From positions 360,947-424,946 of the forward strand of contig NZ_CP059190.1 in NCBI RefSeq assembly GCF_014251555.1: a stretch of 64,000 nt of DNA. Reading direction: 5' to 3'. Below, one piece after another: positions 20,182 to 32,907 of this stretch. The position numbers and the translations under genes were made by a program. Position 1 is the first letter of the stretch. Every line of letters starts with the position of its first letter. This DNA is from Blattabacterium cuenoti (GTDB lineage: Bacteria > Bacteroidota > Bacteroidia > Flavobacteriales > Blattabacteriaceae). Below the pieces are notes generated by a model, which made no database searches, was not told the origin of the DNA, and saw only the letters and a program-made list of their open reading frames with translations.

Positions 20182-21135
20182 ATGATCAAAAGAATATTAG
20201 TTTTAGATAAAAATCATCCTTTTATTATACACAAACTAAAAAAAGAAGGATTTCTTTGTGATGAAAATTATTATGATTCAACCGATAAAATTGATATATC
20301 TGTATATGACGGAATCATTTTAAGAAGCAGATTAATAATAGATAAAAAATTTATTAAAAAAGCTAAAAACTTAAAATTTATAGCTAGAATTGGATCTGGA
20401 ATAGAAAACATAGACAAAGATTATTCTTTGAAAAGAGGGATTACTCTGATTTCTTCTCCAGAAGGAAATAAAGATGCTGTAGCAGAACATGCTATAGGAA
20501 TGCTTTTATGTCTCATGAACCACATCATTCCCTCCCATCAACAAATCAAAAAAGGAAAATGGGATAGAGAAAATAATAGGGGAATGGAAATCATGGGAAA
20601 AACAATAGGCATTATTGGATATGGGAATACTGGAAAAGCTTTTGCAAAAAAACTTTCAGGATTTGATGCTGCTAGAATATTATGTTATGATATTTTACCT
20701 CAAATCGGTGATCTTTATGCAAAGCAAGTCGACATGAGTACAATTTTTCAAAAATCAGACATAATTAGTTTGCATGTACCTTATACAAAAGAAACAAAAG
20801 GAATGATTAATTATGATTTTATCAAAAAGTTTTACAAGCCTTTTTATTTAATAAATACTTCTCGTGGAAGATGTATTCTAACAAGCCATTTGGTTAAAGC
20901 ATTAAAAAACGGAAAAATATCTGGAGCCTGTTTAGATGTATTAGAATATGAAAATTTTTCTTTTGAAAATATTTTTCATCATCATAAACTTCCTAAAAGT
21001 TTCTTTGATCTAATTCATTCTAATAAAGTAGTATTCACTCCACATGTTGCTGGATGGACTCAAGAATCTAAATCCAAGATGGATAAAAAAATTGTTGAAA
21101 AAATTATTTTATTAAACAAAAAACTTAACTCTTAA
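20182..21135 (+). CDS. serA: D-3-phosphoglycerate dehydrogenase-like 2-hydroxyacid dehydrogenase
   Basis: It probably oxidises 3-phosphoglycerate to 3-phosphohydroxypyruvate, the first step of serine synthesis. The NAD-binding motif is GIIGYGNTGKAF (about residue 148). Catalytic Arg, Glu and His appear in NTSRGRCI, LDVLEYE and FTPHVAGWT. It has 317 residues and lacks the C-terminal ACT domain that gives serine feedback in longer SerA proteins. Substrate specificity is inferred, and another 2-hydroxyacid is possible. Serine made here could feed CysE (27739-28563). The stop overlaps the convergent cysG-TauE gene by 4 bases. Confidence 0.82.
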   Translation: MIKRILVLDKNHPFIIHKLKKEGFLCDENYYDSTDKIDISVYDGIILRSRLIIDKKFIKKAKNLKFIARIGSGIENIDKDYSLKRGITLISSPEGNKDAVAEHAIGMLLCLMNHIIPSHQQIKKGKWDRENNRGMEIMGKTIGIIGYGNTGKAFAKKLSGFDAARILCYDILPQIGDLYAKQVDMSTIFQKSDIISLHVPYTKETKGMINYDFIKKFYKPFYLINTSRGRCILTSHLVKALKNGKISGACLDVLEYENFSFENIFHHHKLPKSFFDLIHSNKVVFTPHVAGWTQESKSKMDKKIVEKIILLNKKLNS

Positions 21136-22595
21136 TTGAAAAAACAATTATACAAAATCCTCACACTCCAAATAATTACCAAAATTCCTATAGAGAAACA
21201 CATTATTTTTATAGGTAGTTTACCGGATATTTTTGCTGCTAAAGGAGCAGCAAATAATCCTCCAAAAACTAATCCAAAAACTATTCTCCAGTAGTTAATT
21301 CCTAATAAAGAAAAAAAAGTTAAAGTACTCGAAAGAGTTACAAAAAATTCAGATAAACTTACCGATCCTATAACATATTTTGGAGTTCTTCCCTTTGATA
21401 TTAAAGTGCTAGTAACAAAAGGACCCCATCCTCCACCAACAAAAGAATCTAAAAAACCTCCACATCCTGCAAGACATCCTATTTTCTTAGTTTTTTTGTG
21501 ATCCTTTTTCCATGTTTTTAACAAAATTTTCACTCCCAAAAAAAAAGTATAAGAAGCTAACATGGGTTTAATATAAAAAGCGTAAGATTCTCCGAATTTA
21601 GCAAGCAAAAAAGCTCCAGCAATAGAACCTATAATTCCTGGAATAAGTAATATTTTAAATAATTTTTTGTTTACATTACCCATTTTATAATGACTTAATC
21701 CAGATATTCCGCTAGAAAATATCTCTGCAGTATGTATACTAGCACTGATTGAAGGGAGAGGGATCCCCAAAGAAAGTAATATTGTCGTACAAGTTAGTCC
21801 ATAACCCATTCCTATAGCTCCATCGACTAGTTGTGCAAAAAAACCAGTAAACATTAAATATAAAAAACTTTGATTAAAATGATTCAATATTTTTTGAAAA
21901 AAAATACTTCTTGTTAAAACATGTAAAAAGTAACTGAGAGCAATAATAAATCCTATTATAAAAGGCAAATACTTTATTAAATTTTTTTGTAATTTCTTTT
22001 TTGGGGTTTTTTCGATCAACCATTTTTCAGTTATTAAATTGAGCATTTTCACTTTATATTCAAAATTTCCTTTTAATTTTTTTCGTATTTCACACATATT
22101 TATCAACACGTCATCTAGTTCATGGGGGAACACATCTATAAAAATTTCTTTCAAACGTTTAGCTATTGTAGGAGACTTCCCGTTAGTAGAAATAGCTATC
22201 TTTAAATTTCCTTTTTGAACAATAGACCCCATATAAAAATCACAAAGATCAGGAACATCAGGAACATTAACTAACTTATGCATTTTTCTTGCATCTTTTT
22301 TGATTTCTTCACTTAAAATAGGATTATTTACAGCAATAAATACAACATCCACATTTTCTAAATCAGAAAAAAAATAAAATTTCTTAGTTAATTTGATAAA
22401 ACTAAACAATTTAGCTATTTGATAAATTTCTTGATCTATTTGATCAGCTATTAAATTAATTTTTGTATCAGGATTATTTTTTAATACAGTGTTTAATTTT
22501 TCTAAAGCAGTTTTTCCTCCACCAACAATTAAAAGAGAAAGTTTATCTAAATGTAAAAAAACAGGAAATAATTTATTGTTCTCTTTATTGATCAT
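21132..22595 (-). CDS. Fusion of precorrin-2 dehydrogenase/ferrochelatase (CysG N-domain) and TauE/SafE (TSUP) transporter
   Basis: Residues 1 to about 195 match the siroheme synthase N-domain: LLIVGGGKTALEKLN (NAD-binding), then NVPDVPDLCDFYMGS with the conserved Asp, and AISTNGKSPTIAKRLKE. This part oxidises precorrin-2 and inserts iron to make siroheme. From about 210 the protein becomes a multi-span membrane domain of the TauE/SafE type, with two related halves containing LVDGAIGMGYGLT and GGFLDSFVGGGWGPFV. It is the last gene of the cys operon and the only candidate sulfur-anion transporter in the window. Direction and substrate (sulfate uptake or sulfite export) are not settled by sequence. 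Confidence 0.9.
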   Translation of the reverse strand: MINKENNKLFPVFLHLDKLSLLIVGGGKTALEKLNTVLKNNPDTKINLIADQIDQEIYQIAKLFSFIKLTKKFYFFSDLENVDVVFIAVNNPILSEEIKKDARKMHKLVNVPDVPDLCDFYMGSIVQKGNLKIAISTNGKSPTIAKRLKEIFIDVFPHELDDVLINMCEIRKKLKGNFEYKVKMLNLITEKWLIEKTPKKKLQKNLIKYLPFIIGFIIALSYFLHVLTRSIFFQKILNHFNQSFLYLMFTGFFAQLVDGAIGMGYGLTCTTILLSLGIPLPSISASIHTAEIFSSGISGLSHYKMGNVNKKLFKILLIPGIIGSIAGAFLLAKFGESYAFYIKPMLASYTFFLGVKILLKTWKKDHKKTKKIGCLAGCGGFLDSFVGGGWGPFVTSTLISKGRTPKYVIGSVSLSEFFVTLSSTLTFFSLLGINYWRIVFGLVFGGLFAAPLAAKISGKLPIKIMCFSIGILVIIWSVRILYNCFFN

Positions 22596-22604
22596 TATAA
22601 ATTA

Positions 22605-24278
22605 TTAAACAACCCATTTTTTTCTGATAGAAAAATTTCCAAATCTTTCTTCTGAAAACTTTTCTTCTTGAAAACAAGCAAAAATTTGGTCAAGTTCTTT
22701 TAAAATAGAAGATTCATCCATATTCTTTTTATAAAGTTTATTCAGACGTGTCCCCTCATGATTAGCTCCTAAATAAAGATTGTATCTTCCATAAGAAACT
22801 CCTATCAATCCTATTTCAGCTAAATAGGGACGAGAACAACCATTAGGACATCCGGTCATGCGAATAATTATATCTTCTTTTTCTAATTTATATTTTTTTA
22901 AAATAATTTCTATTTTAGATATCAAACTAGGCAAATAACGTTGTCCTTCTGCTAAGGCTAAAGGACATGTGTTTAGCGCTACACAAGCCATAGAATTTTT
23001 TCTTATAGAAGATAAGCCGTTCATGTAATCATGAATTCCATATTCTCGAAGAATAGACTGTATTTTATTTTTATTTTTTTCATCAATATGAGTTAATGTC
23101 AAATTTTGATTACAAGTGAATGAAAAACTACATATTTCATGTTTCGCTATCTTGAGTAAGGCCGATTTTAATTTCAAGTTTTCATCATCAAAAATCAATC
23201 CATTTTCTACAAAAAATGTATAATTCCATGATTCTTTATGATCTTGAATCCACCCAAAATAATCACGTCTTTCTGTAAAAATAAAAGGATTTTCTTTTTG
23301 TAAAGAAAATCCAATTCTATTTTCTAATTCTTTTTTAAACCAATTTATACCATAATTATCTATAGTATATTTTAAACGGGCTAATTTACGATCGCTTCTA
23401 TTTCCATAATCACGTTGAATAGTTAAAATTTCATATATTATTTTTAGTATTTGATCTTCAGAATCAGAAAAACCAATTACAGTTCCTAACCTTGAATAAG
23501 TTCTAGAATTACCATGAGTAGTAGATAATCCACCTCCAACAGAGATGTTAAAACCTTTTAAAATTTTAGAATTTTTGTCAAAAATAGCAATTAATCCAAC
23601 ATCATTAGCAAAAACATCGACATCATTATTAGGAGGAATTGCTATAGCAATTTTGAATTTTCTAGGTAAATAAGTTTCCTTGTAAAGAGGATCTTTTTCC
23701 TCTTTTTTTTCATATATTTTTTTTTCATCTAACCAAATTTCATAGTAAGCCCTCGTTTTAGGAAGTAACATATTGCTAATTTTAGTAGCATAATTCAAAA
23801 TTTCTTCACGAGAGTATTTACTATCTATATAGGTACTGCATACCACATTTCTATTAACATCTCCACATGTAGCAATAGAATCTAATTTATGAATATTAAA
23901 AAATTGAATGGTTGGTTTTATCTTGGATTTTATCAATCCGTGTAATTGAATTGTTTGTCTAGTTGTTATTTTGATGACTCCAGTTGAATTTTCTTCTGAA
24001 ATATTATGAATAGCTATCCATTGTTTATGATTGATAATACCACCTGGTATTCTGAGACGTATCATAAAAGAATATAATCGTTCCAGTTTTTTTTTCGATC
24101 TCTCTTCTCTTATATCTCTATCATCTTGTTGATATAAACCATGAAATTTAATAACTACCTGATCTTCATCATAAATACTTCCAGATAATTCGTCCTGTAA
24201 ACTATCTATAAGAGTTCCCCTAAGTCCTATGCTTTCTTTTTTTATTTTTTCTTCTTTTGTTATACGAGATATTTTCAT
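22605..24278 (-). CDS. cysI: Sulfite reductase hemoprotein (beta) subunit
   Basis: It reduces sulfite to sulfide with six electrons using siroheme coupled to a [4Fe-4S] cluster. The cluster cysteines are in CVALNTCPLALAEGQ and MTGCPNGCSRPYLAE (about residues 433-480), the classical Cx5C...Cx3C pattern. The siroheme/substrate arginine-lysine regions (ITTRQTIQLHG, GGLSTTH) are also present. The 557 residues match CysI. It lies between cysJ and the cysG-TauE fusion (9-base gap to the latter), so enzyme and cofactor genes are adjacent. Confidence 0.95.
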   Translation of the reverse strand: MKISRITKEEKIKKESIGLRGTLIDSLQDELSGSIYDEDQVVIKFHGLYQQDDRDIREERSKKKLERLYSFMIRLRIPGGIINHKQWIAIHNISEENSTGVIKITTRQTIQLHGLIKSKIKPTIQFFNIHKLDSIATCGDVNRNVVCSTYIDSKYSREEILNYATKISNMLLPKTRAYYEIWLDEKKIYEKKEEKDPLYKETYLPRKFKIAIAIPPNNDVDVFANDVGLIAIFDKNSKILKGFNISVGGGLSTTHGNSRTYSRLGTVIGFSDSEDQILKIIYEILTIQRDYGNRSDRKLARLKYTIDNYGINWFKKELENRIGFSLQKENPFIFTERRDYFGWIQDHKESWNYTFFVENGLIFDDENLKLKSALLKIAKHEICSFSFTCNQNLTLTHIDEKNKNKIQSILREYGIHDYMNGLSSIRKNSMACVALNTCPLALAEGQRYLPSLISKIEIILKKYKLEKEDIIIRMTGCPNGCSRPYLAEIGLIGVSYGRYNLYLGANHEGTRLNKLYKKNMDESSILKELDQIFACFQEEKFSEERFGNFSIRKKWVV

Positions 24279-24309
24279 GTCTACAAAATTTAATTTTTCA
24301 TCGATTTTT

Positions 24310-25977
24310 TTAGTATACGTCTTTCAAATATCTTCCATCTTTTTTCATTTTTTTTATAAAAAATTCTGGGTCACATTCTCCTACTTCGTCTATTACACGA
24401 AAAATCATTTTTTCAACATCTATACTCATAGGATTTTTTTTTCCACAAACATAGATGAATGCTCCATTTTTAATCCATGAAAAAAATTCTATTCGATTTT
24501 TCCATATTTTATCTTGGATATATATTTTTTTTTCTTGATCTCTAGAAAAAGAGAGACTGACATGATTAAGAACTCCTTTCTTTTTCCAATTTTGAATTTC
24601 TGTCTGATACAAAAAATCAGTATAAAAATGTTGATCTCCAAAAAATAACCAATTTTTTCCTGTAGCTTCCATTGCTTCTCTTTCATATAAAAAAGAACGA
24701 AAAGGAGCTATTCCAGTCCCAGCTCCAATAAGAATTATGTCTTTTTTAGAATTTTTTGGTAATCTAAACAATTGGTTTCTATAAATAAAAAAATCTAATT
24801 CATCTCCTTCTTTTAATTTAGATAAAAAATCAGAGCAATGACCATATACAGTTTCTCCATTCAATTGAAAACGATGACGAGATACAGTAATATGTATTTC
24901 ATTATAATGAACTTTAGGAGAAGAAGAAATGGAATACAATCTTGGTTTGATAGGTTCCATTATTTTTATTAGGTCTCTTAACGAAAATTCCTTTTTTATA
25001 GGGAATTCTTTTAAAAGATCAATCAGTTTCCATTTTCGATTAAAAGGAATATATTCCCTTTCAGATAAAAGGGAATATTTTCTTAAAAAATTATCTGATA
25101 GATGAAAAATATTTAATTTTTTTTTTAAAAAATTAAATATTTCTTCTTTATATTTATATTCTTCATTTTTTCTATTTTTTAAAATCCATTCTATAATATC
25201 ATGTATTTTATTTGAAGAATTTTCAGGGAACACTCCTATAGAATCTCCCGGAAGATATTTTATCTCATTTTGAACAGAAATTTCAATATGATGAATTTCT
25301 TTATTAGAGCCTCTTTCTTTATCACTTAAAAGTATATTATTCAAAACTTTTCCACATATTTTTTCCCTTCTATTTTCTGTATTTTGTTCATATTTTTTTT
25401 TTTGAAAAAAATTCAAAATTTCTAAAAACCATTTATCTGCTTCTTCTTCATAATCAACATCACATTTATGCAATGGAATGATTCTTACTGCTCCTATATT
25501 ATGTAAACGTTTATCTACATCCACTCCTGCTTTACAAAAATGAGAATAAGATTTATCTCCTAAAGCCAATACACTATATTTTAAATGATTAATCTTAAAA
25601 TCTGAATTTTTATGAATAAAATCAAAAAAAGATTTTGCAGAAGAAGGAGGTTCTCCTTCTCCATGTGTACTAATTATTATGAATAAATAATCTTCTTTTT
25701 CCAAATCTTGCAAACGATATTGATCTAAACTTATCAATTTCATTTGTAATTTTTTATTTTTTGCTTTTTGATAAATGTCAAAAGCTAAATTTTTTGCATT
25801 ACCTGTTTCTGTCCCATAAACTAACGTAATTTTTTTCTCTTTTTTATTATTTAAAGAAGATTTTTTAGTATTAGAAGACACGAATCCAGACATATAGCCA
25901 CACATCCAAATAATCTCTTCTAGAGAGGATTCTTTGATTAACTTAAAAAATGTTTTGTTATTTGATTCAGATAACAT
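24310..25977 (-). CDS. cysJ: Sulfite reductase flavoprotein (alpha) subunit
   Basis: It passes electrons from NADPH through FAD and FMN to CysI. A flavodoxin-like FMN domain (VYGTETGNAKNLA, then STHGEGEPPSSAKSF and LALGDKSYSHFCKAG) is followed by the FAD domain (PRLYSISSSP) and the NADP domain (GAGTGIAPFRSFLYER, ending DGRYLKDVY). The ATG at 25977 is preferred over an in-frame GTG at 26013 because the family usually opens with an MLS-type start and the IWMCGYMSG region. It has 555 residues from that start. It is upstream of cysI in the same operon. Confidence 0.94.
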   Translation of the reverse strand: MLSESNNKTFFKLIKESSLEEIIWMCGYMSGFVSSNTKKSSLNNKKEKKITLVYGTETGNAKNLAFDIYQKAKNKKLQMKLISLDQYRLQDLEKEDYLFIIISTHGEGEPPSSAKSFFDFIHKNSDFKINHLKYSVLALGDKSYSHFCKAGVDVDKRLHNIGAVRIIPLHKCDVDYEEEADKWFLEILNFFQKKKYEQNTENRREKICGKVLNNILLSDKERGSNKEIHHIEISVQNEIKYLPGDSIGVFPENSSNKIHDIIEWILKNRKNEEYKYKEEIFNFLKKKLNIFHLSDNFLRKYSLLSEREYIPFNRKWKLIDLLKEFPIKKEFSLRDLIKIMEPIKPRLYSISSSPKVHYNEIHITVSRHRFQLNGETVYGHCSDFLSKLKEGDELDFFIYRNQLFRLPKNSKKDIILIGAGTGIAPFRSFLYEREAMEATGKNWLFFGDQHFYTDFLYQTEIQNWKKKGVLNHVSLSFSRDQEKKIYIQDKIWKNRIEFFSWIKNGAFIYVCGKKNPMSIDVEKMIFRVIDEVGECDPEFFIKKMKKDGRYLKDVY

Positions 25978-26017
25978 TTGATTCAATTTTAGAAAAGAAA
26001 ATATTAATATCACTCAA

Positions 26018-26809
26018 TCACTCAAAATAATTTTTTTTATCTAAAACATTAGAATTAAAAAACCATTTGAAATAATGATGTAAAACCACAATTTTACCTA
26101 CAATGACTAAAGAGGGAGACATGAAATGATTTTTTTCCTTTATTAAATTTTTACAATTATAAAGGTTACTTGTATAGACTCTTTGCATAGGAGTAGTAGC
26201 TTGTTCTATTATAGCTACTAATTTATTCATATAAAAAAAATTTTTATTTTTTGTCAATCTATCAAATATTTCATATAATTTTTGAATACACATATAAAAA
26301 ACTAAAGTATCTTGAGTTTTTATGAAATCTATCCACTGATTAAAATTGATAGAATCTGGATTATGAAGAGTAATAAAACGTACAGAAGAGGCATAACCTC
26401 TTGCTGTAAGAGGTATTCCAGCATAAGCAGCAGCACCAACAGCAGATGTTACACCCGGAATGATTTCGTAAGGAATATCATATTTTTTTAATTCCATTAA
26501 TTCGTCCATAATATTGGAAAAAATAGAAACATCTCCTCCTTTTAATCTAACCACATATTTTCCTTTCAAAGCATAGTGAATTAATATTTTGTTGATTTTT
26601 TTTTGAGAAAAAGCAGTTTTTTTTATGGAATTTTTCCCTACAAAAATGAATTTTCTTTTATAGTTAGAATATTTTTTAATGATTTCAGGACTTACAAGAC
26701 GATCTACCAATACTATTTCTGATTTTTTTAAATGATTCAGAGCTTTTATAGTAATCAAATCAGGATCTCCTGGTCCTGCTGAAATAAAAATTACTTTTTT
26801 TGTTATCAT
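26018..26809 (-). CDS. cobA: Uroporphyrin-III C-methyltransferase
   Basis: It methylates uroporphyrinogen III twice using SAM to give precorrin-2, the first committed step to siroheme. The SUMT signature starts ISAGPGDPDLITIKAL (about residue 9). YVVRLKGGDVSIF and VIPGVTSAVGAAAYAGIPLT follow. In some bacteria this activity is fused to the CysG N-domain. Here the two halves are separate genes of one operon, and the CysG N-domain is fused to a transporter instead. The start overlaps the cysteine synthase stop by 4 bases. Confidence 0.95.
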   Translation of the reverse strand: MITKKVIFISAGPGDPDLITIKALNHLKKSEIVLVDRLVSPEIIKKYSNYKRKFIFVGKNSIKKTAFSQKKINKILIHYALKGKYVVRLKGGDVSIFSNIMDELMELKKYDIPYEIIPGVTSAVGAAAYAGIPLTARGYASSVRFITLHNPDSINFNQWIDFIKTQDTLVFYMCIQKLYEIFDRLTKNKNFFYMNKLVAIIEQATTPMQRVYTSNLYNCKNLIKEKNHFMSPSLVIVGKIVVLHHYFKWFFNSNVLDKKNYFE

Positions 26810-27717
26810 AAAAAAAGATTATCAACTGACAAGTATCTTTCTCCAGTATCATAATTAAACGTCAATATTATGGATTTTTCAGAAAACTTAGATAATTGTT
26901 GATCTATAGCAGATAAAACTGCGCCTGTAGAAATTCCAACAAGAATCCCTTCTTGTTTTGCTATTTTACGAACAAAAGTAAAAGCTTCTTCCTTAGAAAC
27001 TAAAAAAGTTCCATCTAATATTTTGACATTCAAAATGGAAGGAATAAAACCTGCACCTAATCCTTGTAAAAAATGCGAATTGGCTTCTCCTCCAAATATC
27101 ACTGGAGATTCCAAAGGTTCCACAGAAAAAATTTTTATATTTGGATATTTATTTTTTAATACTTCTCCTATTCCTGTAATATGTCCTCCAGTTCCAACTC
27201 CTGTAATAAAATAATCTATTCCTTCAGGAAAAGCATCTGTGATTTCCTTTGCTGTTGTATTTTTATGAATATTGGGGTTAGATATATTATCAAATTGTTT
27301 AGGCATCCAGGAATTAGGAATTGTATCAATTAGTTCTTCTGCTTTTTGAATGGCTCCCTTCATCCCTTCTTCTCTTGGAGTCAAGACAAATTTAGCCCCA
27401 AAAATAGAAAATAATTTTCTTCTTTCAATACTCATAGATTCTGGCATGACTAAAATAAGACGATAATCTTTCACAGCACAAACCATAGCTAATCCTATAC
27501 CTGTATTTCCAGAAGTAGGTTCTATGATTAGATCTCCTTTATGAAGGATTCCTTTTTTTTCAGCATCTTCTATCATAGATAATGCAATTCTATCTTTTAT
27601 ACTTCCTCCTGGATTATTTTTTTCTAATTTTATCCAGACTTGGTGATTGGGGTATAATTTATTAAGACGAACATGAGGTGTATTTCCAATAGTTTTTAAA
27701 ATGCTATCAACTTTCAT
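26806..27717 (-). CDS. cysM: Cysteine synthase (O-acetylserine sulfhydrylase)
   Basis: This PLP enzyme joins O-acetylserine and sulfide to make cysteine. The PLP lysine lies in NPGGSIKDRIAL (about residue 42). The substrate loop EPTSGNTGIGLA and the phosphate-binding GTGGHITG are intact. At 303 residues it could be CysK or CysM. NPGGSIKDR and neighbouring motifs lean to a CysM-like type, but the symbol is uncertain. It is encoded between cysE and cobA, so the last two steps of cysteine synthesis are adjacent. Confidence 0.9.
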   Translation of the reverse strand: MKVDSILKTIGNTPHVRLNKLYPNHQVWIKLEKNNPGGSIKDRIALSMIEDAEKKGILHKGDLIIEPTSGNTGIGLAMVCAVKDYRLILVMPESMSIERRKLFSIFGAKFVLTPREEGMKGAIQKAEELIDTIPNSWMPKQFDNISNPNIHKNTTAKEITDAFPEGIDYFITGVGTGGHITGIGEVLKNKYPNIKIFSVEPLESPVIFGGEANSHFLQGLGAGFIPSILNVKILDGTFLVSKEEAFTFVRKIAKQEGILVGISTGAVLSAIDQQLSKFSEKSIILTFNYDTGERYLSVDNLFL

Positions 27718-27738
27718 TTTTCATTTCTTTTTTTTTTA

Positions 27739-28563
27739 TTATATCATAAAATTAATAGGATCAGGAAAAGGACTATTATTTCTCATTTTTATTTCGCTTT
27801 TTTGATATACTATAGAAAAAGGAGGAACACTTTGTGTTAACCAAACATTTCCTCCAATTACACTATCATGACCTACTATGGTTTCTCCTCCTAAAATCGT
27901 AGCACCCGCATAAATAGTAACTTGATCTTCTATAGTAGGATGACGCTTTTGATTCGATAATTTTTTATCCACATGGATAGCTCCCAAAGTAACTCCTTGA
28001 TATATTTTAACTTTATTACCTATTTTTGTACTGGAACCTATAACGATTCCTGTTCCATGATCAATTGCAAAGGCATTCCCTATTTCTGCAGATGCATGAA
28101 TATCTACTCCGGTTTTACTGTGTGCATATTCTGTAATCAATCTTGGAATAATTGGAATTTTCTGAATCCAGAATTGATGTGCTATTCTGTATAATGCAGT
28201 GGCAAAAAAACCAGGATAAGAAATAAAAATTTCTTCTATAACTGTTGCAGCTGGATCAGATTCAAAAATAGCATAAGCATCTTTTATTAATGTTTGATAA
28301 ATATTGGGAAGTTCTTCAAAAAATTTTCTAGAAAGATTATCGGAATTTTTCTGATCAATATTCAATTCAATAAAAATTTCGTATAAAAAATTTTTTAATT
28401 TTTTATAATTTTCTTTGAAATAAACTACATTTTGTAAAATATGTCGATCAGAAGTAAACAGAAAATTGAATAAAGCTTCTACAAATTTTTCAGATTTTTT
28501 TTTATTAGGAAAAGGATCTCTTTTTTTGTTATTTTCAAATATAGTATTTAAAAAATCTAACAT
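27739..28563 (-). CDS. cysE: Serine O-acetyltransferase
   Basis: It acetylates serine from acetyl-CoA to O-acetylserine. The N-terminal helical domain is followed by a left-handed beta-helix of hexapeptide repeats: GVDIHASAEIGNAFAIDHG (the catalytic His-Asp region, from about residue 150), then TGIVIGSSTKIGNKVKIYQ, ATILGGETIVGHDSVIGGN and VWLTQSVPP. It has 274 residues. The usual C-terminal tail that contacts cysteine synthase is short. It lies in the middle of the cys operon, next to the cysteine synthase gene. Confidence 0.94.
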   Translation of the reverse strand: MLDFLNTIFENNKKRDPFPNKKKSEKFVEALFNFLFTSDRHILQNVVYFKENYKKLKNFLYEIFIELNIDQKNSDNLSRKFFEELPNIYQTLIKDAYAIFESDPAATVIEEIFISYPGFFATALYRIAHQFWIQKIPIIPRLITEYAHSKTGVDIHASAEIGNAFAIDHGTGIVIGSSTKIGNKVKIYQGVTLGAIHVDKKLSNQKRHPTIEDQVTIYAGATILGGETIVGHDSVIGGNVWLTQSVPPFSIVYQKSEIKMRNNSPFPDPINFMI

Positions 28564-28577
28564 TTATTTAATTAAAT

Positions 28578-29831
28578 TTATTGAATCATGCAAGCAGACA
28601 CTGTAGAATAACTTGTTTCATCTATTAAAATACAAGCTCCATTTTCTTTTATTTTTTTATAAGAATCGTGCGGAACTGGTACAGATGTTTTTACTTTTAC
28701 TTTGACTAAATCATTCAATCCAGCATAATCTGGTGTATTTTCTCTTTTTAAAGTATTCACATCTATACGATAAGAAATATTTTTTATCCGAACTGGAACT
28801 TGAAAACTGTGAATTTGAAATAAGTATTTATCTCCCATTTTTAATGGTTTATTTGACATCCAACAAAGAATCATCTCAAATTCTTGAGAAAAAATAGGAA
28901 GATCATCATCTTTTTTCACTATAAGATATCCACGAGAAACATCTATTTCATCTTTTAAATACATAACTATACTTTGGGGAGAAAAACCTTCCTCTATTCT
29001 TAATCCGTTTTTTTCCATTTTTTTTATAAATGTATGATTCATAGAAGGATAAATAATTACTTCATCTCCAACTTTATATATTCCACTAATAATTTTTCCA
29101 GCATATCCACGAGATGGATTATGCTTATGATTGGAACAAATGACATATTGAACAGGAAATCTAGAAGCTTCTAAATAGGTTTTTCTTTGAATAACAACAT
29201 TTTCCAATAAAGAAAGAAGACTTGGACCAGAATACCATTTCATATGAGATGATTTATCTACTACATTATCTCCATTTTTTGCACTAATTGGAATCATGTA
29301 TACGTCCTTTAAACCGACTCTACGAGCAGTGACTTGATACTGACTAATAATCGCTTTATAAATACGATCATCATAATTAATTAAATCCATTTTGTTAATA
29401 GCAAGTATAATTTTTGGAATATTGAGCATCCCAAGAATTAAAGAATGTCTTTGTGTTTGTTCTACTACTCCATGACATGCATCAATTAAGATAATAGCCA
29501 AATCCACATGAGAGGCTCCTGTGACCATATTTCTGGTGTATTGAATATGTCCTGGAGCATCAGCTATAATAAATTTTCTCTTAGATGTAGAAAAATATTT
29601 ATAAGCAACATCAATAGTTATTCCTTGTTCTCTCTCGGCTCGTAATCCATCAGTAAATAGAGATAAATCGATTTTCTCTTTTTGATTTTTTCCATGTTTT
29701 TTTATACTTTTGTCTGTGACAATAGATAATTGGTCCACAAGTATGGAATGACTGTCGTACAATAAGCGTCCAATCAGAGTGCTTTTCCCATTATCCACGC
29801 TTCCTGATGTCATAAATCTTAAAGTATCCAT
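28578..29831 (-). CDS. cysN: Sulfate adenylyltransferase subunit 1 (GTPase)
   Basis: This GTPase subunit drives formation of adenylyl sulfate (APS) from ATP and sulfate with CysD. The translation-factor GTPase motifs are present: GSVDNGKSTLIGRLLYD (P-loop), EREQGITIDVAY (switch I), ADAPGHIQYTRNM (DxxG) and NKMD. Two beta-barrel domains follow. It has 417 residues with no CysC (APS kinase) domain fused at the C-terminus, consistent with an APS-reducing pathway. It directly follows cysD (10-base gap). Confidence 0.95.
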   Translation of the reverse strand: MDTLRFMTSGSVDNGKSTLIGRLLYDSHSILVDQLSIVTDKSIKKHGKNQKEKIDLSLFTDGLRAEREQGITIDVAYKYFSTSKRKFIIADAPGHIQYTRNMVTGASHVDLAIILIDACHGVVEQTQRHSLILGMLNIPKIILAINKMDLINYDDRIYKAIISQYQVTARRVGLKDVYMIPISAKNGDNVVDKSSHMKWYSGPSLLSLLENVVIQRKTYLEASRFPVQYVICSNHKHNPSRGYAGKIISGIYKVGDEVIIYPSMNHTFIKKMEKNGLRIEEGFSPQSIVMYLKDEIDVSRGYLIVKKDDDLPIFSQEFEMILCWMSNKPLKMGDKYLFQIHSFQVPVRIKNISYRIDVNTLKRENTPDYAGLNDLVKVKVKTSVPVPHDSYKKIKENGACILIDETSYSTVSACMIQ

Positions 29832-29841
29832 TATGAATTTT

Positions 29842-30750
29842 TTAAAAATATCCTTGTTTTTTTCTATCTTCCATAGCTGTCTCAGATAAAGAATCGTCTA
29901 TTCTGGTTTGACCTCTTTCACTTATTTTTGTGTCTAAAAGTTCTTGAATTATTTGTTCGACATTAGTAGACATTGATTCTATAGCGGCAGTACAAGTCAT
30001 ATCTCCTATAGTTCTATAACGTAATTTTTTAATGTGGACAACTTCATCAGGATTAGGTTTAATCAAATCAGATATAGCCATCCATTTTCCTCGAATATTA
30101 ATAGCTTTTCTTTCATGCGAAAAATAAATGGAAGGTAGTGAAATATTTTCTTTTTTTATATAATTCCATACATCGAGTTCTGTCCAATTACTAATTGGAA
30201 AAACTCTCACATTTTCTCCTTCATGTATTTTTCCATTATAAATATTCCATAATTCAGGTCTTTGCAGTTTAGGATCCCAGGATCCAAATTCATTTCTAAT
30301 AGAAAAAATTCTTTCTTTAGATCTTGCTTTTTCTTCATCTCTACGTCCTCCTCCAATACATGCCTCAAATTGAAATTCTTCAATAGTATCTATTAGGGTA
30401 TAAGATTGCAAAATATTCCTATTGGGAAATCGGCCTTTAGGCTCAGATAAATTTCTTTGAACTATAGTATCTTCTACTTTTCGTATAATAATTTCTTCTT
30501 TAATTTCTTTTACTAAACAATCTCTAAATTCTAATGTTTCAGGAAAATTATATCCAGTATCAATATGAACTAAAGGAAATGGTATTTTCCCAGGTCTAAA
30601 AGCTCTTAAGGCTAAATGAACTAACAAAATAGAGTCTTTTCCTCCAGAAAATAATAAACACGGTTTATCAAACTGTCCTGCTACTTCTCTATAAATGTGA
30701 ATGGATTCTGATTCTAATTCTTCTAAGTAATTTAAATAATAAGTTTTCAT
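29842..30750 (-). CDS. cysD: Sulfate adenylyltransferase subunit 2
   Basis: This is the catalytic ATP pyrophosphatase subunit that adenylylates sulfate. The PP-loop is SGGKDSILLVHLA, followed by PFPLVHIDTGYNFPE and GGRRDEEKARSKER. The start at 30750 (MKTYYLNYLEELESESIHI) is chosen because family members begin with LxxLExESI. An upstream in-frame ATG at 30807 would overlap cysH by 23 bases. From 30750 it has 302 residues, the normal length. Confidence 0.94.
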   Translation of the reverse strand: MKTYYLNYLEELESESIHIYREVAGQFDKPCLLFSGGKDSILLVHLALRAFRPGKIPFPLVHIDTGYNFPETLEFRDCLVKEIKEEIIIRKVEDTIVQRNLSEPKGRFPNRNILQSYTLIDTIEEFQFEACIGGGRRDEEKARSKERIFSIRNEFGSWDPKLQRPELWNIYNGKIHEGENVRVFPISNWTELDVWNYIKKENISLPSIYFSHERKAINIRGKWMAISDLIKPNPDEVVHIKKLRYRTIGDMTCTAAIESMSTNVEQIIQELLDTKISERGQTRIDDSLSETAMEDRKKQGYF

Positions 30751-30784
30751 GTTTATCCATTTTATGTCATTTTTTACGAATTTT

Positions 30785-31519
30785 TTACTTTTTAATATGT
30801 AATCCACATTCTTTTTTTATAGAATCATTCTCCCACCACCAACGTCCACTTCGGTAACTCTCACCAAATCTAACGGAACGAGTACATGGAGCACATCCTA
30901 TACTTAAAAAACCTTTGTCGTATAAAGAATTATAAGGAATTTTGTGTTTTTTGACTATTTTTTCTATGGTTTCTAATTTCCAATTATAAAGAGGATGATA
31001 TTTAATCAAATGATATTTTGAATCCCATTCCAAATAATTCAGTTTTTTTCTTTCCATAGAATGTTCTGCACGTAATCCAGTGACCCATACAAAGTTTCCT
31101 TGTAAGGCTTTTTTTAGGGGCTCTACTTTACGTAAAAAACAACATTTTATTCTATTTTTTACATTATCATAAAATGAATTTGGTCCATTTTCTGATAAAA
31201 ATTCCTCTAATTTATCTTGATTAGGATAATAAGCAGAAATAGAATATCCATAAAATTTATTTGTATCTTCCCAAACTTTATAAGTTTCTTCAAACAGCCT
31301 TCCTGTATCTAAAGTGAATATTTTTATGGGAATTTTATTTGATAAAATGAAATGAGAAATCAATTGATCCTCAATATTAAAACTTGTAGAAAAAACTATT
31401 TTTCCTGGAAATAAATTTGAAAAAGTTCTTAATTTATCCTCTACAGAAGTGGATTTGATTTCTTTTGAAAGATCAGATAAACATTCTTGTGATGAAACTT
31501 TCCATTTCATATTTTTCAT
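30785..31519 (-). CDS. cysH: Adenylyl-sulfate (APS) reductase type CysH
   Basis: It reduces activated sulfate to sulfite using thioredoxin-type electrons. The catalytic cysteine is in the C-terminal ECGLH. The protein also has the cysteine pairs IKCCFL (about residue 125) and GCAPC (about 208), the [4Fe-4S] signature of APS reductases. Enzymes that use PAPS lack these cysteines. This fits the absence of an APS kinase gene or CysN fusion in the operon. ATG 31519 or ATG 31510 could start it. It is the first gene of the cys operon, behind a terminator-like hairpin. Confidence 0.92.
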
Positions 31520-31535
31520 TCATTACCATAAAAAC

Positions 31536-31563
31536 AAAAAAACCCTTCGAATCATTCAAAGGG
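31536..31563 (-). terminator. Terminator-like hairpin upstream of cysH (possible attenuator)
   Basis: On the minus strand a 21-base dyad (31563-31543) has 5' arm CCCTTTGA and 3' arm TCGAAGGG around loop ATGAT, followed at once by seven T residues (31542-31536). All eight stem pairs form in minus-strand RNA, one being G-U. In plus-strand RNA that pair would be a C-A mismatch, so the fold suits minus-strand transcription. It lies 17 bases before the cysH start, with no minus-strand gene upstream to terminate. Confidence 0.55.
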
Positions 31564-31584
31564 ATGGAAGATAAATCTAAACAT
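31552..31584 (-). promoter_or_regulatory. Possible cys-operon leader peptide
   Basis: A ten-codon frame, [10 protein letters not shown], ends at a TGA inside the hairpin. A ribosome on its last codons would cover the 5' arm, the geometry of translational attenuation. It contains four Phe codons and no Cys, which is odd for a cysteine operon and may only reflect AT-richness. Confidence 0.25.
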
Positions 31585-31594
31585 TCTTCTTACA

Positions 31595-31602
31595 CAAAGA
31601 TA
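31595..31602 (-). promoter_or_regulatory. Predicted Bacteroidota -7 box for the cys operon
   Basis: The minus strand reads TATCTTTG, an exact TAnnTTTG match, 76 bases upstream of the cysH start at 31519 and upstream of the hairpin. Transcription from it would include the leader frame and hairpin. No clear -33 TTTG was found. Confidence 0.4.
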
Positions 31603-31677: not shown

Positions 31678-32907
31678 ATGAAAAAAATTAAAGTTAATAA
31701 TCCTATAGTAGAAATTGATGGAGATGAAATGGCCAGAGTTATATGGGAATACATTAAAAAATATTTTATTTTTCCTTATCTAGATATAGATATTATTTAT
31801 TTTGATCTAGGAATCAAAAATAGAAATCTTACCAATGATCAAATTACCATAGAAGCTGCTTATGCCATCAAAAAATATAATGTTGGAATTAAATGTGCAA
31901 CAATAACACCGGATGAAGATAGGATAAAAGAATTTCATTTAAAAAAAATGTGGAAATCCCCAAATGGAACTATACGGAACATTATTAATGGAACCGTATT
32001 CAGAGAACCTATCATAGCTAATAACATTCCTCGTCCAATTTCAAATTGGAAAAAACCCATATGCATAGCCCGGCATGCTTATGCAGACCAATATGAAGCA
32101 ATAGATTTTATAATTGAGGAAAAAGGAAAATTGTATATTTATTTTCTTCCAGATAACAATAAAAGTAAAATAAAAAAATTTGAAATCCATCATTTTATGG
32201 GCCCTGGAATTGCTATGGGAATGTACAACACAGATCAATCCATATGTAGATTTGCTCGTTCTTGTTTTAATTATTCAATATATAAAAAATGGCCTTTGTT
32301 TCTTTCTACCAAGAATACTATTCTTAAAGAATATGATGGAAAATATAAGAAAATTTTCCAAGATCTATATGACAGTGAATTTAAATCAAAATTTGAAGAA
32401 CTAAAAATTACTTATGAACATCGTTTAATAGACGACATGATAGCAAAAGCTATCAAATCAAATGGAGGATTTATATGGGCTTGTAAAAATTATGATGGAG
32501 ATGTCCAATCTGATTGCATTGCCCAAGGATTTGGTTCATTAGGAATGATGACTTCAGTTTTACTTACTCCAGATGGAAAAACTTTAGAATCTGAAGCTGC
32601 TCATGGAACTATAACTCGACATTATAGATTACATCAAAAAGGACAAAAAACTTCTACCAATCCTATTGCTTCTATTTTTTCTTGGACTAGAGGCCTTAAA
32701 CATCGTGCTTTTTTAGATAAAAATCTGGATTTAAAATATTTTTCTGAAAAAATGGAAAAAACATGTCTAGATTTTATAGAATCCGGAAAAATGACCAAAG
32801 ATTTATTTCAATTAGTTTATGGAAGTGAATATAACAACAAAAAAAATTATTTAGATACCAAAACTTTTTTTAAAGAATTAAAAATTTTTTTCGATAAAAA
32901 AATGTAA
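31678..32907 (+). CDS. icd: NADP-dependent isocitrate dehydrogenase (eukaryote-like type)
   Basis: It oxidatively decarboxylates isocitrate to 2-oxoglutarate. The sequence follows the type of cytosolic/mitochondrial NADP enzymes: [15 protein letters not shown] near the N-terminus, [32 protein letters not shown] (substrate loop), YDGDVQSD (metal-binding Asp) and [12 protein letters not shown]. The frame is open up to 31465, but homology starts at the ATG at 31678, giving 409 residues. The longer start would run into cysH on the other strand. It converges on menE with a 9-base gap. Confidence 0.95.

Follow-up and report, generated by a model that had tools for sequence, protein, structure and literature searches.

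A conserved terminator-type hairpin in the leader of the Blattabacterium sulfate-to-cysteine operon

The window analysed here, a stretch of 64,000 nucleotides of Blattabacterium cuenoti DNA, carries a sulfate-to-cysteine operon on its minus strand. The first gene of the operon is cysH, encoding (P)APS reductase (30785 to 31519, ATG at 31519; NCBIfam NF002537, 6e-72). It is followed, according to the open reading frames and NCBIfam matches, by cysD, cysN, cysE, cysK, cobA, cysJ, cysI and a cysG-N/TauE fusion gene (21132 to 30807, minus strand). The fusion gene is a single open reading frame (21132-22595) joining a siroheme-synthase N-terminal (CysG-N) domain to a membrane protein, the sequence of which points to the TauE/SafE type. 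The divergent neighbour is icd, encoding NADP-dependent isocitrate dehydrogenase (31682 to 32907, plus strand; NCBIfam NF006156, 3e-202). The family match and the relatives place the probable start of icd at 31682; a longer icd call, which begins at 31465 and spans the cysH leader, is an over-extension. The first-pass annotation had stated that no minus-strand gene lies upstream, which holds locally, where icd is divergent, but the same-strand gene menE ends ~1.35 kb away.

On the minus strand, the leader upstream of cysH begins with the sequence TATCTTTG (31595 to 31602), which conforms to the Bacteroidota-type -7 promoter box (TAnnTTTG). This is followed by a ten-codon open frame (31552 to 31584; ATG at 31584, TGA at 31554-31552) that probably yields no functional leader peptide, by the hairpin CCCTTTGAA-TGA-TTCGAAGGG (31543 to 31563), and by a run of seven T residues (31536 to 31542) forming a U-tract that abuts the stem. 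The order of box, frame, hairpin, T-run and cysH is as the first-pass annotation had described it. The promoter consensus of the Bacteroidota is known, and it is on this basis that TATCTTTG is considered a putative promoter, presumably in use in vivo. A terminator scan recovered the hairpin with 9 pairs, one of them G-U; four of the nine are G-C, three of these at the base of the stem, and the three bases of the loop are exactly the TGA stop of the ten-codon frame. Folding of 31563-31536 gave -10.3 kcal/mol (z = -3.3), a value equalled by 1 of 200 shuffles of this 28-nt stretch. The whole 67-nt stretch folds at -15.6 on the minus strand versus -11.2 on the plus strand, where the stem contains one C.A mismatch, in agreement with the earlier claim that full pairing is confined to minus-strand RNA. 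An Rfam search of the window at gathering thresholds detected three tRNAs only, and no riboswitch, T-box or other leader family.

We read the stretches downstream of menE in 49 Blattabacterium genomes. The hairpin and its T-run are intact at the cys locus in 17 of them, across deep clades, and because it is conserved in these 17 genomes the hairpin is real, beyond chance. A covariance model was built on an alignment in which longer loops had been trimmed by hand to align the arms, and hits were taken from the untrimmed genomes. The cys locus was the best hit, far above the rest, in every hairpin-keeping genome, and the scan found no second copy of comparable score elsewhere in the genus. The larger alignment of hits includes two doubtful ones (L050, L059) and one on the opposite strand (L037), and counts over the whole alignment are slightly contaminated. 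Among the 17 genomes the stem arms are 90% identical, whereas the preceding 24 nt are 61% identical, versus 58% when shuffled. The first-pass annotation had proposed stem covariation in related genomes as a check, and compensatory changes do maintain pairing at pair 1, where C-G is replaced by U-A in G047 and by A-U in G025. Pair 6 switches between U-G and U-A, and every stem pair except the loop-closing one is maintained. The loop ranges from 3 to 13 bases, indicating that spacing is free. Stem energies lie between -9.5 and -12.3 kcal/mol in 16 of the 17 genomes, the remaining one being G047 (-7.3).

The U-tract is equally regular: the eight bases after the stem hold six to eight T residues in 17/17 genomes (mean 7.0), against surroundings of 36-45% T. 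Compared between genomes, the T-tail is no more identical than shuffled sequence, T-runs being common in a T-rich genome. A promoter box precedes the hairpin in all 17 leaders, at a distance of 15-57 nt, and a box matching TATCTTTG, mostly TTCTTATATTTG, occupies this position in almost every genome of the genus. Judging from its distribution, the hairpin at the cys operon is ancient and conserved in Blattabacterium.

The presence of the hairpin was compared with the content of the operon. Eight genomes have an intact cysH and one (G029) a nearly intact one; the hairpin is intact in 8 of these 9 versus 9 of the 39 genomes in the tree lacking an intact cysH, the others having it eroding (G035, G003, G034) or gone (Fisher p = 0.0005, a raw value that ignores kinship). 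A tree-aware test pointed in the same direction, but with only 2-3 independent contrasts (p 0.25-0.5). In G043 the whole operon is present and the hairpin absent, indicating that the hairpin is dispensable there. Five relatives devoid of cysH (G002, G016, G017, G031, G004) have arms that are 92% identical, the preceding stretch being 68% identical. Retention of the hairpin without cysH suggests that it may still be useful before the remaining cysE-cysK-cysJ, or that there has been too little time for decay. The neighbouring menE is present in 49/49 genomes and, where icd is missing at this site (G018, G040, G019, G045, G021), is the nearest gene upstream on the same strand. Two further features of the operon were observed. 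cysJ, encoding the sulfite reductase flavoprotein, is at least partly present in 49/49 genomes, its partner cysI having been lost in most (L021-L069); cysJ may have another electron-transfer role. In G029 (L009), deletion of cysD has fused the first 178 residues of CysH in-frame to the C-terminal part of CysN, yielding an open reading frame of 423 amino acids.

We also searched for leader hairpins elsewhere in this genome. The census covered 259 genes that are first in their transcription unit, with starts called mechanically at ATG, in 620 of 638.7 kb, the last 18.7 kb lying outside it. Eleven leader hairpins of -6 kcal/mol or better were found versus about 2 in shuffled leaders. Of those that have a promoter box ahead of them within the same leader, the four most stable belong to ilvD, cysH, trpE and hisG, and they recur in 26/30, 17/49, 22/30 and 29/30 genomes, respectively. 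A pdhB-like gene is preceded by a more stable hairpin that is located 26 nt past the upstream gene and is probably the 3' terminator of the latter. The hisG hairpin, AAAGCTTAC..GTAAGCTTT with a T-rich tail, is located at G000:C1:223535-223550 (minus strand; loci L182-L211), and the ilvD-ilvB hairpin, ATCCCTACT..AGTAGGG followed by TTTTTG, at G000:C1:97322-97343 (plus strand; loci L152-L181). The terminator-like hairpin of trpE is at G000:C1:234571-234594 (minus strand; loci L122-L151). In the 30 genomes examined, no his or trp leader has a frame with at least three cognate codons. G043 has neither the his nor the cys hairpin. In many genomes a second conserved AT-rich hairpin lies upstream of the ilvD hairpin. 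Conservation of the trpE leader, which measures about 130 nt, is strong outside its hairpin as well: ATGGTATTC, early in the leader, complements AATACCAT, which immediately precedes the trpE start, and pairing is conceivable between GTCAT and the ATGAC of the hairpin. It is possible that this is a structured regulatory leader.

Free-living relatives present a different picture at hisG. Their hisG leaders (L213-L228) carry His-rich frames such as MNNINLIHHHHHLI, followed by a hairpin and T-run, and by this layout are textbook attenuators. The Weeksellaceae-type his leader resembles that of Blattabacterium in having the hairpin and then the T-run shortly before hisG, and differs in its peptides such as MNNINLIHHHHHLI and further conserved segments; no His-rich frame is present in the his leaders of Blattabacterium. 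In the control of his, the sensor thus appears to have been lost and the terminator-like hairpin retained. At cysH, no leader hairpin was found in 21 Weeksellaceae-type loci and 4 further free-living loci, and inheritance of the Blattabacterium element from free-living cys leaders was rejected on this ground. In many free-living relatives an Rrf2-type regulator gene, recognised by eye, adjoins cysH, and the promoter box has an inverted repeat on its upstream side. Where cys genes are under Rrf2/CymR-type control, this control acts at initiation. It concerns the same pathway as the Blattabacterium hairpin, but no Rrf2 protein was detected in any of the 49 Blattabacterium genomes, control genomes being positive.

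The first-pass annotation had proposed an attenuator that includes the ten-codon frame. Classical ribosome-mediated attenuation through this frame or a counterpart of it has precedent. Leader-peptide attenuators are known at the his, trp and ilv operons of enterobacteria and flavobacteria; such systems place a terminator hairpin and U-tract between the promoter and the first gene, as in the Blattabacterium cys leader, and target the same class of operon, those for amino acids. The literature that we found on regulation in Blattabacterium or on Bacteroidota attenuators is sparse; it includes a report of leader-peptide attenuation before amino-acid operons of Flavobacterium psychrophilum (PMC9723704). 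This flavobacterial precedent, together with the plain case before hisG of free-living relatives, favours the classical mechanism, as does the position of the stop codon of the frame within the loop in G000 (this genome), G029 and G042. However, the ending common to these three, HPFE and the stop, is what results from translating the stem sequence in frame. Between box and stem there is no ATG in 7 of the 17 hairpin-bearing leaders (G005, G031, G016, G017, G018, G021, G047) and a start-stop only in an eighth (G002), while the peptides of the remaining leaders are short and mutually unrelated. All 17 leaders together contain one Cys codon (MCLPL, G019), and comparison across genomes revealed neither a conserved antiterminator nor a conserved sensor of any other kind in the 15-57 nt that separate box and hairpin. 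The cys leader therefore differs from leader-peptide attenuators in having no conserved cognate-codon peptide and no visible antiterminator. Since the Phe-rich peptide is unconserved and cognate codons are absent, we rejected this mechanism and consider it extremely improbable, and the leader-peptide part of the earlier proposal falls with it, the frame being missing in about half of the 17 leaders.

Another reading is that the palindrome acts as DNA, serving as the operator of a repressor, and not as RNA. Conservation of the arms in sequence, not in pairing alone, is what an operator would show, and the persistence of the G-U pair in most species fits it as well. Yet the spacing of the half-sites would range between 3 and 13 bases, the two arms do not form a perfect inverted repeat in DNA, and the U-tract is always there; moreover, the Rrf2-type regulator that stands beside cysH in many free-living relatives is the one absent from all 49 genomes. 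The variable spacing and the absent regulator make an operator very improbable. The hairpin could also shield a long operon mRNA from 5'-dependent decay, the U-run being incidental. Its location near the presumed 5' end, at 15-57 nt from the promoter box, is consistent with such a role, which requires no sensor and would predict retention only with a valuable operon. We nevertheless find a stabiliser unlikely: a T-run directly after the stem in all 17 genomes is unneeded for stabilising, and a comparable stem-plus-U layout is found at his, ilv and trp. It is quite unlikely, too, that the hairpin is no leader element and terminates incoming upstream transcription, from menE or antisense through icd, thereby guarding the cys promoter region. 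The universal presence of menE, directly upstream where icd is missing, would suit this function. Against it, in every genome with the hairpin the promoter box lies before it, so that the cys transcript must cross the hairpin; the hairpin is equally retained where divergent icd separates menE from it (G000, G005, G042, G047); and despite the universality of menE, the hairpin is gone in most genomes devoid of cysH.

The interpretation that we favour, and hold to be fairly probable, is that the cys hairpin and U-tract constitute an intrinsic terminator that lies near the promoter, within the operon's 5' leader, and acts without a leader-peptide sensor. The stem is stable, with a G-C base, and is followed directly by the U-tract; this terminator is situated between the first gene and a promoter assigned by consensus, and the leader is devoid of a conserved short frame rich in Cys codons. 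RNA polymerase would initiate just after TATCTTTG and make a leader of roughly 50 nt. At the U-tract a fraction of the polymerases would terminate, the rest reading into cysH and the following genes. Termination in vivo and an effect on expression are predicted here from the sequence, and with a stem of modest stability (about -10 kcal/mol) termination may be weak. The earlier suggestion that the element gates entry to the operon is retained in this form: being strand-specific and of the terminator type, downstream of a conserved box and travelling with the cys operon, the hairpin is well placed for gating, but the leader-peptide sensor is not part of it. Such an attenuator would act either as a constant brake or under the influence of a factor that the sequence does not reveal, and it would be one of a few leader hairpins kept before the cys, his, ilv and trp operons. 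That these four operons are subject to regulated attenuation without leader peptides, answering another cue (e.g. uncharged tRNA, nucleotide levels or polymerase speed), is a possibility that we regard as doubtful.

Reduced symbionts are usually described as stripped of gene regulation. In Buchnera, attenuation is stated to be unused (PMC3091783). In Blattabacterium, candidate leader terminators are retained before four amino-acid operons, the peptide sensor being gone at his, the sole case in which one was seen in free-living relatives; for cys, unlike his, the loci compared point to no known ancestral sensor. Repeated losses of cysH, and the loss of the hairpin alone in one lineage, make the cys case a natural experiment. 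If these hairpins terminate in vivo, they would act as constant brakes on expensive pathways or amount to RNA control in minimal form; if peptide-free regulated attenuation proved true, a nearly regulator-less symbiont would control amino acids by RNA alone.
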